A DNA stretch of 64,000 nt, taken from assembly GCF_900116365.1 (NCBI RefSeq), contig NZ_FPAG01000005.1:186001-250000 (forward strand). Reading direction: 5' to 3'. Source of the DNA: Zhouia amylolytica (GTDB lineage Bacteria; Bacteroidota; Bacteroidia; Flavobacteriales; Flavobacteriaceae). How positions within the stretch are numbered: the first letter of the stretch is position 1; the number at the start of each line of letters is the position of its first letter. The notes under the pieces are model-generated. The model saw only the letters and a program-made list of their open reading frames with translations, was not told where the DNA came from and searched no databases. The position numbers and the translations under genes were made by a program. This document shows positions 20,367 to 33,873 of the stretch, piece after piece.

Positions 20367-23060
20367 ATGGTTGTGAAGGATATAAAATATGCCATTGGAG
20401 TAGATATCGGGGGGTCGCATATAGCTGCAGCCGTGGTGGATGTTCAACACCGGAAAATAATTCCTGAAACCAAGGTGCATTCAAAATTGGATTCACACGA
20501 AGATGCAGGTATTATTTTGAGGGTTTGGCTTGAATGTATTAAGCAAAGTATTAAAAAATCAGAAGGGTTGCCCATAGGTGGTGTGGGGATTTCAATACCG
20601 GGGCCTGCTGACTATGATAAAGGAATTGTTCATATTCAAGGAGTGGATAAATACGATAAGTTATTTGCCATTAATATGAGGCATTTTCTAACGAATGAAT
20701 TGGCAGGTTTGCTGTTATATCCTGATAACGTCTTTTTTATTAATGACGCTGCCGGATTTTTATTGGGAGAGACCTGGTCTCAATATTTAACAGAAGAAAA
20801 AATTGCTGCGATTACACTAGGTACAGGAATCGGTTCTGGTTTTATGAAAGATGGATTGTTACTTTCTGACGACGATACGATCCCTGATCATGGAGAACTA
20901 TTCAACCTTCCGTATCAAAGTAAAACGGTAGAAGATTGGATTTCCACACGATGGTTTTTGCACCGTTATAAGGAGCAATGCGGATATGAAGCAGCCAATG
21001 TAAAAGAAATAGCAGATCAAGCAGCTACGGACTCCAATACCCGAATGATCTTTGAGGAATTTGGATCCAATCTCGGTACTGTTTTAAGTCCGGTTTTAGC
21101 CAAGTTTGGAACTGACTTATTAATACTTGGGGGAAATATTTCTAAAAGTTATCCTCTTTTTAAAGCAACATTTGAGGAGGAGTTGGGGGAAGTAACCCCG
21201 AGAATACATTTTGCAAAAGAAACTGAAAATGCAGCTATACTGGGGGCTGTAAAAAATATATTAGCAATGAATGAAATGGATTTTAACAAAAGAAACACAG
21301 CGCAATTTTTAATGCCCGTTAACAGGGAAGAAAAGCAGCTAGAGGGCTACGATGTTTTTCCATCTTTTGAAATTAGTGAGGGTACAGTATCACAAGGTTT
21401 TGAAAGTTTAGCAAGGGAACTCTCATTCTATAAAAAAGTGTGTATTGATGGTTATGTTGGGGTAGACTGGGATTACTTAATGGGTGGTTTATCTGAAGCG
21501 CTCAGGCAATTAGGGGTTAAAAACATTACTTACTCGATCGATGCAGCCTATAAGGATGCTGATGTAATTGATGCCATGATAGCACCATTTTTGGGTGGAG
21601 ATGATCCGGTCTTTGGAAGACTTTATGAAGGCGATCTGGAAGATTTCTTCCAAAGGGATAAGCTCGAGTCTTTGGTGGCTGATGACGATTGTTTATCGAT
21701 TGTATATGGTTCCGGGGCTTCATTGTGTAACTGGGATGCTAAACTGGTTTATGTTGATATTCCAAAGAATGAGATACAATACCGTTCGCGGGCAGGATGG
21801 GTCCGGAATATAGGAGCACAAAAACCGATTTCGGCAAAGCCTCAGTATAAAAGAATGTTTTTCGTTGACTGGCCGGTATTAAACAGGCATAAACAAAATC
21901 TCTTAAGTGCTATTGACTTTGTGGTAGACGGTCAGTTTTTAAATGATATATCCTGGTGCGCCGGAAGTACTTTACGGGCGGCACTAGCCGAAATGTCTAC
22001 ACATGCATTCAGGGCACGTCCGTGGTTTGAACCTGGTGTGTGGGGAGGCGACTGGATCAAGAATAATATTGACGGACTTTCTGATGAGGTGGTGAATTAC
22101 GCATGGTCTTTTGAACTTATTGTACCGGAGAATGGGATCGTGATCTCTAAAAAGGGTGTAAACCTCGAAGTGTCTTTTGACTTTTTGATGTACAATGATC
22201 ATCAGGCAATATTAGGAGATGCTGCAAAGACTTTTGGAACCGACTTTCCTATCAGGTTTGACTTCTTAGATACGTTTAATGGAGAGAATCTTTCATTACA
22301 GTGTCACCCAAAGCCTAACTTTATCAGTGAGCAATTCGGAGAAAAGTTTACGCAAGATGAAACTTATTATATTCTGGATGCAGCAGATGATGCGAATGTG
22401 TACCTTGGATTTAAGGAGGGAGTAAATAAGGATGAATTTCACCAGGCCTTGGTTAAAAGTCAGCAAGAGGGTAAAGAAGTTGAGGTCGAAAAATATGTGC
22501 AAATACATCCTGCTAAAAAACACGATTTATTTTTAATTCCACATGGTACGATCCATTGTTCTGGTATCAATAACCTGGTTCTTGAGATAAGCAGTACTCC
22601 TTATATTTATACTTTTAAAATGTATGATTGGATGCGTTTAGACCTCAATGGTCAACCGAGACCACTAAATATAGAAAGGGGAATGGCCAATCTTAATTTC
22701 GACTGTCAGGGTGATGTGGTAGAAGAAGAATATATTTCCAAACAAACGGTTACAGCCGAAGGTAAAGGGTGGAAAGAGGTGCAATTAAGTACGCATCCAC
22801 AACATTTCTATGAAGTGTATAGGATGGAATTTAATGATCAAATTCATGTTGAGGGTAACAATCAATGTCATATCTTGAGCCTGGTTGAAGGAAGTCAGGT
22901 AGAAGTAGTTACCGGAGATAGAAAAATGGTAGTGGCTTATGCCGAAACCTTTGTTATTCCATCCAATGCTGGTTCATACACCATTAATAACCTGGGGTCA
23001 AGTATTGCCAAGGTGGTGAAATCCTTTGTTAAACCTGAAGTTTGTAATTATGAATCTTAA
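20367..23060 (+). CDS. ROK sugar kinase fused to class I mannose-6-phosphate isomerase
   Basis: An 897-residue cytoplasmic fusion. Residues 1 to about 305 are a ROK kinase: phosphate-binding AIGVDIGGSHIAAAV with Asp13, catalytic FINDAAGF (Asp127) and adenosine motif TLGTGIGSGF. The usual ROK zinc motif CxCGxxGCxE is missing; PYQSKTVEDWIS stands in its place. Residues about 320-897 match the roughly 590-residue Bacteroidota/Firmicutes type of mannose-6-phosphate isomerase, which has an extra N-terminal domain (CIDGYVGVDWDYL) before the cupin. Metal ligands visible are Gln645 and His647 (LSLQCHPKPN), a Glu in DETYYIL, and His730 (PHGTIHCSG). The fusion would convert mannose to fructose 6-phosphate in one polypeptide (inference from domains and the GH92 context). 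The downstream transporter overlaps its 3' end. Confidence 0.92.
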   Translation: MVVKDIKYAIGVDIGGSHIAAAVVDVQHRKIIPETKVHSKLDSHEDAGIILRVWLECIKQSIKKSEGLPIGGVGISIPGPADYDKGIVHIQGVDKYDKLFAINMRHFLTNELAGLLLYPDNVFFINDAAGFLLGETWSQYLTEEKIAAITLGTGIGSGFMKDGLLLSDDDTIPDHGELFNLPYQSKTVEDWISTRWFLHRYKEQCGYEAANVKEIADQAATDSNTRMIFEEFGSNLGTVLSPVLAKFGTDLLILGGNISKSYPLFKATFEEELGEVTPRIHFAKETENAAILGAVKNILAMNEMDFNKRNTAQFLMPVNREEKQLEGYDVFPSFEISEGTVSQGFESLARELSFYKKVCIDGYVGVDWDYLMGGLSEALRQLGVKNITYSIDAAYKDADVIDAMIAPFLGGDDPVFGRLYEGDLEDFFQRDKLESLVADDDCLSIVYGSGASLCNWDAKLVYVDIPKNEIQYRSRAGWVRNIGAQKPISAKPQYKRMFFVDWPVLNRHKQNLLSAIDFVVDGQFLNDISWCAGSTLRAALAEMSTHAFRARPWFEPGVWGGDWIKNNIDGLSDEVVNYAWSFELIVPENGIVISKKGVNLEVSFDFLMYNDHQAILGDAAKTFGTDFPIRFDFLDTFNGENLSLQCHPKPNFISEQFGEKFTQDETYYILDAADDANVYLGFKEGVNKDEFHQALVKSQQEGKEVEVEKYVQIHPAKKHDLFLIPHGTIHCSGINNLVLEISSTPYIYTFKMYDWMRLDLNGQPRPLNIERGMANLNFDCQGDVVEEEYISKQTVTAEGKGWKEVQLSTHPQHFYEVYRMEFNDQIHVEGNNQCHILSLVEGSQVEVVTGDRKMVVAYAETFVIPSNAGSYTINNLGSSIAKVVKSFVKPEVCNYES

Positions 23061-26685: not shown

Positions 26686-27402
26686 TCAGGAAAGTTCTGC
26701 ATACTCCAATCGGTTGATGATCTCTGGGTAATCTGATTGTTTATGGGCATTGATAACATCTCTGCTTACCGGGTAGGCATTTAATTCGATGGATCTGAAT
26801 ATTTTGAATTCTTCTTTTAAAGAGTCTTGACGATTCATCAGAATCATATAGTCTTTGTCCTCCGGTGCAACACACATAGGCATTCGTTTAGCGCCGTTGT
26901 GGATTTTTTCAAACAGCGGATCGGCGGTGGTAGTAATAACGGAACAGGTGAGTATCCCTCCTTGATGTGTATAGATTCCTAACAGTCCGAACATTTCGTG
27001 ATTTGGTCTTTCGAAAAAGAAAGGGATGTTTTTACCTTGTGAGGGTTTGTGAGGTTCATAAAGTCCGTCTATGAGTATGAGGCATTTATTTTTTAACAGG
27101 GCTTCATCTTTCCAGCTGAAGTAGTTTTGAAAAAATTTATCATCACGGGTGTTAAGGGTTCCGCCAGTATATTTTTTCCAGTATGTTTCCAGGGAGTCTT
27201 TATAATGGGGAGGAGCAATACCCCAGGTAGCCAGTTGTATTATGTCAGGTTCTTCCTGTGTCATCACCATGACATTGGCATGAGAAAAACCATTAAGATG
27301 ATAGTAAACAGGTACGTGTTCTGGATTAAGCACATTTTCGGCATCGAAGAGTTCTGATATTTTCTGAGGGTTCTTTTGGCGTTGCGAAATATGGTAGCAC
27401 AT
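26686..27402 (-). CDS. yedK: SRAP-domain protein (HMCES/YedK-like)
   Basis: A 238-residue SOS-response-associated peptidase-type protein. The family crosslinks through Cys2 to abasic sites in single-stranded DNA and shields them. Here Met-Cys2-Tyr is kept, along with LNTRDD (active-site Asn), the Glu motif in IDGLYEPHK (usually GFYEW in other members) and KIHNGAKRMPM, holding the conserved His before the RMP motif. It lies 64 bp downstream of the S24 repressor on the same strand, so probably in one transcript with it, and opposite a polymerase cassette. This fits DNA-damage control. Confidence 0.92.
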   Translation of the reverse strand: MCYHISQRQKNPQKISELFDAENVLNPEHVPVYYHLNGFSHANVMVMTQEEPDIIQLATWGIAPPHYKDSLETYWKKYTGGTLNTRDDKFFQNYFSWKDEALLKNKCLILIDGLYEPHKPSQGKNIPFFFERPNHEMFGLLGIYTHQGGILTCSVITTTADPLFEKIHNGAKRMPMCVAPEDKDYMILMNRQDSLKEEFKIFRSIELNAYPVSRDVINAHKQSDYPEIINRLEYAELS

Positions 27403-27466: not shown

Positions 27467-28216
27467 TTATAACCTCGACTTAATAGCCTCAAACCCGGCC
27501 TTCATTTCTTGAGCCAGCTTATCGTAGGTATATTCAGGAACTTCAAAATTGGTGGTAATCTTACTCACTACCTGCCATACTTCTTGTATTTCGGAGGTAG
27601 GGCATTCAATGGGTGGATATTCTTTGTTTATAGAAATAAGCTGTGTATGCTCATTAGTAACGATCATTTTTTTAACGACTACGGTATCGGGGAGCACTAC
27701 TACATATAGGTTATCGGGTTTAATATCGGAAAGTCTTTCGGTTGCCCGGGCAATCACCCATTCTCCCTGGTGTAATACGGGATGCATACTATCTCCCTTT
27801 ACCTGAAAGGCTCTGTGCGTAGCATTGCGGTATTCAGGGAGTGGCAGATCGAAAGCAGGGAGGTTTTCATACCATTCTACATCCTGTAGATTATGTGCAT
27901 AGCCGGCTGATGCCTTTACGGGCACCATCATTACATTTTCCTGTTCTTCACTGTTAAGGGTTACTACTTTGGGTAAGGTATTGTCAGATGGATGGAGGTA
28001 TTTTTCATTGCTTTCACCAAAGAGCCAAAGCGGATTGATACGATATAATTGAAATAGTTTGGTGACGATTTCACCTGAAATCTTTGTTTTACCACGTTCT
28101 ATATCGGCGGTAGTACCACTGATACCCAAACATTCGGCAAAAGTCTGTTGCGTTAATTTTTGCTCTTGTCTGATACTTTTGAAGCGAATACTTGCTATGG
28201 GTAAATCTTTGATCAT
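27467..28216 (-). CDS. LexA-like repressor: HTH plus S24 self-cleaving peptidase
   Basis: A 249-residue protein. Residues about 8-66 are an XRE-type helix-turn-helix (IRQEQKLTQQTFAECLGISG). The C-terminal S24 peptidase has a candidate cleavage pair Ala104-Gly105 in KASAGYAHN, nucleophile Ser143 in VKGDSMHPVLHQGEW and general base Lys182 or Lys183 in TVVVKKM, the LexA/CI/UmuD layout. It is therefore expected to cleave itself when RecA is activated and to release its targets. It is divergent from a polymerase/nuclease operon across 102 bp that carry four identical-core palindromes (28239-28309), presumably its operators. A phage repressor is the alternative, but there are no phage genes nearby. 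Confidence 0.9.
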   Translation of the reverse strand: MIKDLPIASIRFKSIRQEQKLTQQTFAECLGISGTTADIERGKTKISGEIVTKLFQLYRINPLWLFGESNEKYLHPSDNTLPKVVTLNSEEQENVMMVPVKASAGYAHNLQDVEWYENLPAFDLPLPEYRNATHRAFQVKGDSMHPVLHQGEWVIARATERLSDIKPDNLYVVVLPDTVVVKKMIVTNEHTQLISINKEYPPIECPTSEIQEVWQVVSKITTNFEVPEYTYDKLAQEMKAGFEAIKSRL

Positions 28217-28220
28217 AAAA

Positions 28221-28311
28221 CAAATATAGCTCTTTCATGGAAATAATCCGTTTTTAACATGGATTATTTCCTAATAAATGGAAAAATTCCATAATTTTGG
28301 AAAAAATCCAA
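28221..28311. promoter_or_regulatory. divergent SOS-like promoter region with four GGA-N5-TCC operators
   Basis: Four 11-bp sites with AT-only spacers share GGA-N5-TCC: GGAAATAATCC (28239), GGATTATTTCC (28261), GGAAAAATTCC (28280) and GGAAAAAATCC (28299). Spacing between starts is 22, 19 and 19 bp. The third and fourth extend to TGGAAAAATTCCA and TTGGAAAAAATCCAA. TAATTTTG at 28292-28299 fits a -7 element for the polymerase operon and lies between sites three and four. On the minus strand TATATTTG (28228-28221) could be the repressor's -7 element, though that would leave almost no leader before its ATG at 28216. Confidence 0.75.
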
Positions 28312-28318
28312 TTTATTA

Positions 28319-29533
28319 ATGAGTCGCACAATATTACATCTTGATCTGGATACTTTCTTTGTATCTGTTGAGCGTTTGCTTGATAGTAGGTTAAAGCAGC
28401 GACCAATACTTGTAGGTGGGGTAAGCGATCGAGGTGTAGTGGCGGCTTGCAGTTACGAAACCCGATCTTTCGGGGTACATAGTGGAATGCCAATGCGCAT
28501 GGCTAAAGAATTGTGTCCTGAGGCAGTGATTATAAAGGGAAATGCAGGTGTGTACTCTAAGCATTCAGATGTGATTACTGATATAATTAAAGAAAAAGTT
28601 CCTTTGTTTGAGAAGGCGAGCATCGATGAATTTTATGCAGATCTTTCGGGGATGGACAAGTTTTTTGGCAGTTATAAGTATGCTTCGGAACTGCGGAGAA
28701 CTATTACAAAGGAAACCGGACTGCCTATATCGTTTGGTTTGTCGGTTAATAAAGTAGTATCGAAAGTAGCAACCGGAGAGGCCAAGCCAAACAATCAGCT
28801 AAAAATAGATTATGGCTTTGAAAAACCGTTTTTAGCGCCTTTGTCAATTAAGAAAATCCCCATGATAGGAGACAAGACTTATTTGACCTTGCGCAATCTT
28901 GGAATTAAACAAGTACAAACCCTTCAGGAGATGCCTAAAGAAATGCTTTATACGGTTTTGGGTAAAAACGGACTTACAATCTGGGATAGAGCCAGTGGGG
29001 TGGATACAACCCCGGTTATACCGTTTTGTGAACGAAAATCGATTTCTACTGAACGTACTTTTGATCGTGATACGACTGATGTACAGAAGCTTAGAACATT
29101 ACTGATCGCTATGACAGAGAATTTAGCCTATCAGTTGCGAAGAGGCGAAAAACTAACCGCCTGTGTAGCCGTTAAATTAAGATACTCTGATTTTCAAACG
29201 GTATCGAAACAGCTTAAAATACCTTATACCAGTGCTGACCATATTTTAATAGAGAAGGTGCTCGGACTCTTTAAACAACTCTATAACCGTAGAATGCTGG
29301 TACGACTTATAGGGATAAGGTTTAGTCATTTGGTACATGGTAATTACCAGATTAATCTGTTTGAAGATTCTGAAGAAGCTATTAATCTCTATCAGGCACT
29401 GGATAAAATCAGGCAACGGTATGGAGATAAGAGTGTATTGAGAGCAGCGGGTATGGGTGCCAGGACTATTGGTAGAATGCATAACCCTTTTAACGGACAG
29501 CCACCAACCATATTAGCACATAGAAAACAATAA
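28319..29533 (+). CDS. dinB: Y-family translesion DNA polymerase (DinB/UmuC-like)
   Basis: A 404-residue translesion polymerase. Catalytic acidic residues are in LHLDLDTFFVSVE (Asp8, Asp10) and SIDEFYADLSG (Asp103-Glu104). The thumb helix-hairpin-helix (IPMIGDKTYLTLRNLGIKQV) and little-finger domain follow. QINLF at residues 344-348 is a beta-clamp-binding QxxLF motif. The C-terminal tail (LDKIRQRYGDKSVLRAAGM) resembles UmuC/ImuB more than classical Pol IV. The start codon is 20 bp after the -7 element and just past the fourth operator. Its stop overlaps the next gene's ATG by one base (TAATG), so translation of polymerase and DnaE is coupled. Confidence 0.93.
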   Translation: MSRTILHLDLDTFFVSVERLLDSRLKQRPILVGGVSDRGVVAACSYETRSFGVHSGMPMRMAKELCPEAVIIKGNAGVYSKHSDVITDIIKEKVPLFEKASIDEFYADLSGMDKFFGSYKYASELRRTITKETGLPISFGLSVNKVVSKVATGEAKPNNQLKIDYGFEKPFLAPLSIKKIPMIGDKTYLTLRNLGIKQVQTLQEMPKEMLYTVLGKNGLTIWDRASGVDTTPVIPFCERKSISTERTFDRDTTDVQKLRTLLIAMTENLAYQLRRGEKLTACVAVKLRYSDFQTVSKQLKIPYTSADHILIEKVLGLFKQLYNRRMLVRLIGIRFSHLVHGNYQINLFEDSEEAINLYQALDKIRQRYGDKSVLRAAGMGARTIGRMHNPFNGQPPTILAHRKQ

Positions 29534-32499: not shown

Positions 32500-33873
32500 A
32501 TGTACGCAATTATAGATGTAGAAACAACGGGTTTTGGGGGAGAAAATAACCGCATAACAGAAATAGCGGTGGTAATTCATAATGGAACTACATTAGTAGA
32601 TGAGTACCATACCCTGGTAAACCCGGAAATGCCTATTTCAAGAAATGTAATAGGTCTTACCGGCATAGACGACGGAATGGTACATGATGCCCCAAAATTT
32701 TCAGAGATAGCAGAAAAAATAGAGCAACTTACAGCGAATAAAATATTTGTAGCTCATAATGTGAATTTTGACTATAATGTAATCAGGAATGAATTTAAGA
32801 GACTTGGAATTGACTATAAAAGGAAACGCCTATGTACTGTGCGCCTCTCCCGACAAATATTTCCGGGGTTACGCTCGTATAGCCTGGGGAATTTATGCCG
32901 TAATTTAGAAATTCCTATTCAACAGAGACACCGGGCTAAGGGAGATACAGATGCTACCGTGATTTTATTACAAAAACTGCTTAAAAATGATCAGGATGGT
33001 ACCGTGGCACAGCATCTCAATCAACGTTCCAGAGAGGTTACCTTACCACCCCTTTTACCTAAAACTATTTTTGAAGAATTACCCGAAACCTCAGGCGTAT
33101 ACTATTTTTTGAATGATACAGGTAAAATTATATATGTGGGAAAGGCAGTCAATATTAAGAAAAGAGTATTGAGTCATTTTTATGATAAAAAAGCCAAGGA
33201 GTTAGCCTTGAGCAAGGAAACTGCCCATATAGAGTTTGAAGAAACAGGAAGCGAACTGTTAGCACTCATAGTAGAGTCCGTTAAGATTAAACACCATTTT
33301 CCAAAATATAACCGGGCTCAAAAACGCAGGAGTAAAGGATATGGAGTTTTTAGTTATACCGACAGGAAGGGTATTATACACCTGGCTTATAACCACCTGA
33401 AACTAGTTAAGCAGCCAATAAAGGTATTTTATTCCACAAGAGAGTGTGTAGCTTTTATGGAACAGCTTTGTGAAGCCTATAACCTTTGTCCTAAGTATAC
33501 CCAGTTGCAAAGTAATGTTAAGCATTGTTCTCATTATAAGTTGAACGAGTGTAAAGGTATTTGCAGGGAAGAGGAAGTTATCGATGAGTATAACAATAGG
33601 GTACAACAAGCGATAGCAGGAACAAAAACGAAAAGTACCGATTTCTTACTGATTGAAAAGGGGAGAACACCAAAGGAAAAGGCCGTTATATTAATAGAAG
33701 ATGAACACTATAGAGGGCATGGGTTTATACCTAATGACCAATGCTTAACTACCATAAATGATCTTGAAGCCTGGATTGAGCTGCAACCAAATAATCGGGA
33801 GATTGACCACTTTATAAAAGCTTATATGGATAAGGTAACGAACAAGGTTGAAATTGTTCAGTTGCCTTCGTAG
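32500..33873 (+). CDS. DEDDh exonuclease fused to GIY-YIG nuclease
   Basis: A 457-residue two-nuclease fusion. Residues 1 to about 165 form a DnaQ-type DEDDh 3'-5' exonuclease: IIDVETTGFG (Asp6, Glu8), VAHNVNFDYNVI, and HRAKGDTDATV (His and Asp). Residues about 195-280 form a GIY-YIG domain as in UvrC/Cho: SGVYYFLNDTG, IIYVGKAVNIKKRVLSHF, and the catalytic Glu in VESVKIKHHFPKYN. The C-terminal region contains a Cys cluster (YNLCPKYTQL, KHCSHYKLNECKGICREE), which may bind a metal; this fold element also follows the GIY-YIG domain in some UvrC-like proteins. Third gene of the polymerase operon, 12 bp after DnaE. It may supply proofreading and incision during damage repair. Confidence 0.9.
   Translation: MYAIIDVETTGFGGENNRITEIAVVIHNGTTLVDEYHTLVNPEMPISRNVIGLTGIDDGMVHDAPKFSEIAEKIEQLTANKIFVAHNVNFDYNVIRNEFKRLGIDYKRKRLCTVRLSRQIFPGLRSYSLGNLCRNLEIPIQQRHRAKGDTDATVILLQKLLKNDQDGTVAQHLNQRSREVTLPPLLPKTIFEELPETSGVYYFLNDTGKIIYVGKAVNIKKRVLSHFYDKKAKELALSKETAHIEFEETGSELLALIVESVKIKHHFPKYNRAQKRRSKGYGVFSYTDRKGIIHLAYNHLKLVKQPIKVFYSTRECVAFMEQLCEAYNLCPKYTQLQSNVKHCSHYKLNECKGICREEEVIDEYNNRVQQAIAGTKTKSTDFLLIEKGRTPKEKAVILIEDEHYRGHGFIPNDQCLTTINDLEAWIELQPNNREIDHFIKAYMDKVTNKVEIVQLPS

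Follow-up and report, generated by a model that had tools for sequence, protein, structure and literature searches.

The genome of Zhouia amylolytica contains a gene for an S24 repressor and an operon for a translesion polymerase that are transcribed away from each other, and four copies of the palindrome GGA-N5-TCC are located in the short gap between them. The locus raises the question of which protein reads these palindromes and how far its control extends, and whether they represent a new kind of SOS box, as the initial annotation had suggested. We have analysed the locus within a window of 64,000 nucleotides (the whole stretch of DNA under study), within its genome and within the Flavobacteriaceae.

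Four palindromes in a divergent promoter

The S24 gene (hereafter lexA) and dinB are separated by exactly 102 bp (28217-28318). This gap, the starts of the four palindromes within it (Table 1) and their start-to-start spacings of 22, 19 and 19 bp are all as initially annotated. Over the whole window GGA-N5-TCC is found 14 times where 12.4 are expected, and since the motif is thus not enriched window-wide, the signal lies in the clustering. The probability of four or more sites in 102 bp is 6e-9 (Poisson, at the window's own rate), and when the 102-bp sequence was shuffled 50,000 times with its dinucleotides preserved, two sites arose in 14 cases and three or more in none. All four sites had been placed on a single face of the DNA. 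The helical-turn positions (0, 2.10, 3.90 and 5.71 for operators 1 to 4) uphold this approximately for operators 1-3, which are within about 0.1 turn of a common face, but not for operator 4, which is about 0.3 turn off.

Bacteroidetes promoters are of the -33/-7 type, and TAnnTTTG is their -7 consensus. An element of this type, TAATTTTG, is situated between operators 3 and 4, where the initial annotation had seen it, and has one base in common with operator 4, which would cover the likely transcription start of dinB. A second -7-like element, TATATTTG, is directed towards lexA and was absent from that annotation.

Table 1. Positions of the features of the lexA/dinB locus (window coordinates) and of the canonical-domain LexA loci of other genomes (coordinates of the respective locus)
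Feature	Position	Strand	Remark
SRAP (SOS response associated peptidase) gene	26686..27402	-	64 bp downstream of lexA, same strand; Pfam
lexA (S24 gene; non-canonical LexA, HTH_3 + Peptidase_S24, 249 aa)	27467..28216	-	Pfam
lexA -7-like element TATATTTG	28221-28228	-	faces lexA
Operator 1, GGAAATAATCC	28239..28249	.	ends 10 bp before the lexA -7 element, lexA direction
Operator 2, GGATTATTTCC	28261..28271	.	
Operator 3, GGAAAAATTCC	28280..28290	.	end immediately precedes the dinB -7 element
dinB-operon -7 element TAATTTTG	28292-28299	+	Bacteroidetes-type TAnnTTTG
Operator 4, GGAAAAAATCC	28299..28309	.	has one base, the last of the dinB -7 element, in common with that element
dinB (Y-family DNA polymerase IV)	28319..29533	+	Pfam
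dnaE-type DNA polymerase III alpha, 984 aa	29533..32487	+	overlaps dinB stop codon; Pfam
DnaQ-type exonuclease fused to GIY-YIG domain	32500..33873	+	Pfam
Canonical-domain LexA, L149	800-1396	-	divergent from dinB-dnaE
Canonical-domain LexA, L167			divergent from dinB-dnaE
Canonical-domain LexA, L168	1501-2100	+	divergent from dinB-dnaE

The repressor and its cassette

Pfam searches bear out the identities first given to the repressor, dinB, dnaE and exonuclease genes. The repressor matches PF01381 (HTH_3, N-terminal) with 28.9 bits (cut-off 23) and PF00717 (Peptidase_S24, C-terminal) with 50.1 bits (cut-off 23.3), and shows no match to PF01726, the winged helix of LexA_DNA_bind. TIGR00498 scores only 21 bits on it against a cut-off of 111, and a PDB sequence search gave no match at E 0.001. 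Alignment with relatives reveals that the Ala104-Gly105 cleavage site and the Ser143/Lys182 dyad are intact. A search of the genome with the repressor returned one copy.

The SRAP gene is probably co-transcribed with lexA; the 64-bp gap between the two contains no GGA-N5-TCC box. No relative of the repressor is present in the sole available congener (G001), whose closest dinB match reaches 36% identity; the cassette thus seems to be an accessory element in this genus. Elsewhere in the window, an 897-aa reading frame (20367-23060, + strand) adjoins a sugar transporter and, as read from its translation, combines a part resembling ROK-type sugar kinases with a part resembling mannose-6-phosphate isomerases.

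The box follows the repressor

The initial annotation had staked its reading on conservation of the motif upstream of orthologous cassettes, and the motif does recur at orthologous promoters in the clade of the repressor. Two to four GGA-N5-TCC boxes are present upstream of the repressor gene in all 14 box-clade loci, namely the window and 13 others whose repressors are 45-50% identical to that of the window, and within 250 bp upstream in none of 24 more distant relatives. A palindrome search without a preset motif gave the same partition: GGA-N5-TCC ranks first in the box group (14/14 loci, 49 instances) and is not among the top palindrome classes of the 24 other relatives. The arrangement of the boxes recurs as well, with one pair spaced by 18-19 bp and another by 21-23 bp (in Nonlabens also 43 bp), and at eight further clade loci an exact TATATTTG follows the final box at a distance of 8-9 bp. 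In a tree built without the published reference WP_075324850.1, a single supported clade, of 15 rows, unites the box-bearing loci, and its only member lacking a box over 250 bp is L026, from a Saprospiraceae MAG. The recognition-helix region reads [TI]ADIERG[KR] in all box-bearing rows and differs outside them, L026 being the nearest.

The divergent neighbour is dinB in the window and in L043, SRAP followed by dinB-dnaE in Nonlabens, a radical SAM protein in L037-L039, a DUF4130 protein in L040 and a Na/H exchanger in L036. Since the neighbour varies from locus to locus, the box follows the repressor and not the polymerase.

The initial annotation had also proposed a scan of the family, and this reveals a clear excess. 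In 297 of the 299 Flavobacteriaceae genomes, paired boxes (two boxes 6-13 bp apart) number 434, against 74 for a control in which the pattern is read backwards and codon use is not preserved; genomes with three or more number 75, against 1 in the control. The comparison as a whole independently confirms GGA-N5-TCC as the SOS box for a large share of the Flavobacteriaceae.

Repressor relatives of about 30% identity (L045, L046, L049-L052 and L054), several of which are located beside dnaE and/or a GIY-YIG exonuclease gene, carry neither GGA nor CTAA boxes upstream of the S24 gene; TGTAG/CTACA words recur around the -7 element, and these are perhaps another diverged box. Distant relatives of the repressor (25-30% identity) are also carried by the Elizabethkingia phage TCUEAP3 (OK632026.1, 589-1302) and by five Bacteroidota plasmids, which agrees with the proposal that non-canonical LexA originated in phages (PMC8565304).

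Probable operators of a non-canonical LexA

Because the sites recur with the repressor's own clade, at orthologous promoters and with recurrent spacing, it is very probable that the S24 repressor uses them as its operators. We hold with high confidence that the cluster serves a non-canonical LexA of the HTH_3-S24 type found in Flavobacteriaceae, which would repress both divergent promoters until DNA damage occurs. Dimers of the S24 protein would bind the GGA-N5-TCC palindromes, most likely one palindrome per dimer, and the bound repressor would block its own promoter (probably together with the SRAP gene) and that of dinB-dnaE-exonuclease. Control of both promoters is suggested by the position of the lexA-side box just upstream of its -7 element, and by that of boxes 3 and 4, which flank the dinB -7 element. 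In some relatives, where a TTG is located 18-19 bp upstream, the box nearest to lexA falls in the -33/-7 spacer. Such positions point to occlusion of the polymerase as the likely mode of repression. Upon damage, RecA filaments would cause the repressor to cut itself between Ala104 and Gly105, and this would switch on the genes for translesion synthesis and repair. For the window's protein, RecA-triggered cleavage may be presumed from the conserved residues and from induction data on a relative: in S. agarivorans, mitomycin C induces the repressor and other predicted targets, though not recA (PMC8565304).

The boxes might instead serve another regulator that co-regulates the divergent promoter, and not the adjacent S24 protein. 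Binding by the window's own S24 protein is a prediction, and at least one box-bearing genome (G022) encodes a second, diverged S24 relative (L064) besides that of L041. However, the distribution of the box matches the clade to which the neighbouring S24 gene belongs, and the box is present at the S24 promoter even where the neighbour is other than dinB (L037-L039, Nonlabens SRAP, L036), while the search of the window's genome gave a single repressor copy. Moreover, the S24 protein of S. agarivorans binds the box specifically by EMSA, as tested with dyad and spacer mutants (PMC8565304), so that, by analogy with this relative, for which both binding and damage induction are known, the window's own protein is likely to bind its boxes. 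We therefore consider a different regulator very improbable.

A genuinely new SOS box with a new regulator, as initially suggested on the grounds that the box is unlike those of E. coli and Bacillus, is ruled out by the literature. GGA-N5-TCC has been reported as the box of the Bacteroidetes non-canonical LexA, with a GGA group found chiefly in Flavobacteriaceae (Sanchez-Osuna et al. 2021, PMC8565304). The same study found the motif upstream of dinB in Bacteroidetes, gave the name non-canonical LexA to the HTH_3-S24 proteins, reported multiple boxes in one promoter, and listed SRAP, the GIY-YIG exonuclease, dinB-dnaE and the repressor itself as predicted targets. The motif with its spacer length, the architecture of the regulator and the target operon are thus all on record, and novelty has hardly any probability left. 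The idea that the palindromes arose by chance in AT-rich intergenic DNA deserves equally little credence: the pattern is indeed not enriched over window or genome, but more than two sites never arose in the shuffles, and the number and spacing of the sites recur across genera.

One clear promoter with the exact box

With the four sites taken as operators of the non-canonical LexA, the extent of its regulon can be considered. Boxes with an AT spacer number 73 in the window's genome against 63 for the reversed pattern, which is no clear excess. Among 72 GGA-W5-TCC places scored, 50 are inside reading frames of at least 200 codons. The remaining 22 include three boxes of the lexA/dinB promoter and five matches in a non-coding repeat or its variants; the others are mostly without a nearby gene start. 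A single site in L087, 34 bp away from a putative start, and two more in L017 and L018, at 88-174 bp from such starts, are weak candidates. Further paired boxes are present at C8:196573, C16:71307 and C17:94948, with mixed spacers that are not AT-only. The lexA/dinB promoter is the only clear case of AT-spacer boxes, for exact boxes, where degenerate ones could be missed. A large regulon of exact boxes was accordingly not found in this genome.

The non-coding repeat is about 110 bp long and contains ATGGATTTAATCC, most copies being bounded by CCCGTCGG and CGACGGG. It occupies at least five genomic places, some near tRNA genes, with copies in L072, L074 (two), L075 and L101 around position 1201 (in L074 also 1589), and it explains several of the GGA-N5-TCC matches.

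The initial annotation had proposed to look for the motif at recA, uvrA or other repair genes. With one mismatch allowed, no box was found within 300 bp of recA or of a second dinB, nor was any found within 250 bp of two UDG-family genes. This is not a defining failure, because recA, the UDG operon and further Y-family polymerases are regulated in some species only (PMC8565304). The published regulon size is 8.90 +/- 3.27 operons in families with large regulons, and small regulons occur in some lineages (PMC8565304); the window's genome suggests how small such a regulon may possibly become.

A canonical-domain LexA at the same cassette

In two genomes of one flavobacterial genus other than that of the window (G018 and G261), dinB-dnaE is divergent from a LexA of 199-200 aa, and the dinB is 64-66% identical to that of the window. 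These LexA proteins match PF01726 with 47.8 and 45.9 bits (cut-off 23.7), TIGR00498 scores 96 bits on the G018 protein (cut-off 111), and the LexA/dinB promoter of both genomes contains the palindrome TTGTTCTA-N8-TAGAACAA. A relative of this LexA with 53-54% identity, also carrying PF01726, is present in G090 (L169), not beside dinB within the stretch examined. The Bacteroidetes phylum had been reported to be without identified LexA homologues (PMC8565304), which makes the G018 and G261 proteins less ordinary than the window's locus. A LexA of this kind beside the dinB-dnaE cassette of a different genus is relevant to the question of how one SOS regulator comes to replace another. We see an even chance that dinB-dnaE is a module whose SOS regulator has been swapped within the family, between HTH_3-S24 proteins with the GGA box, diverged S24 proteins and the canonical-domain LexA of G018 and G261 with its own palindrome, the GGA system of the window's genome being a single-promoter regulon.

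Comparison with known systems

The canonical LexA of E. coli and Bacillus is likewise an autoregulated, self-cleaving S24 repressor of translesion polymerases. However, it has the winged-helix domain PF01726, which the window's protein lacks, and it recognizes other boxes. The window also resembles a group of HTH_3-S24 repressors with another box, which control dinB and related cassettes; relatives outside the window's clade, at about 25-41% identity, are without the GGA box. The closest likeness is with the published GGA group, as represented by S. agarivorans. Both belong to the Flavobacteriaceae and share the box sequence and spacer length, an HTH_3-S24 repressor with Ala-Gly cleavage site and Ser/Lys dyad, several boxes in the repressor's own promoter, and dinB-dnaE and the GIY-YIG exonuclease as targets with SRAP close by. 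Motif, domains and cassette would place the window's repressor in the published GGA cluster. The window's genome differs from that group in having the exact box at essentially one divergent promoter. The locus is a further ordinary example of the known flavobacterial SOS boxes, to which it adds a clear four-site divergent promoter.
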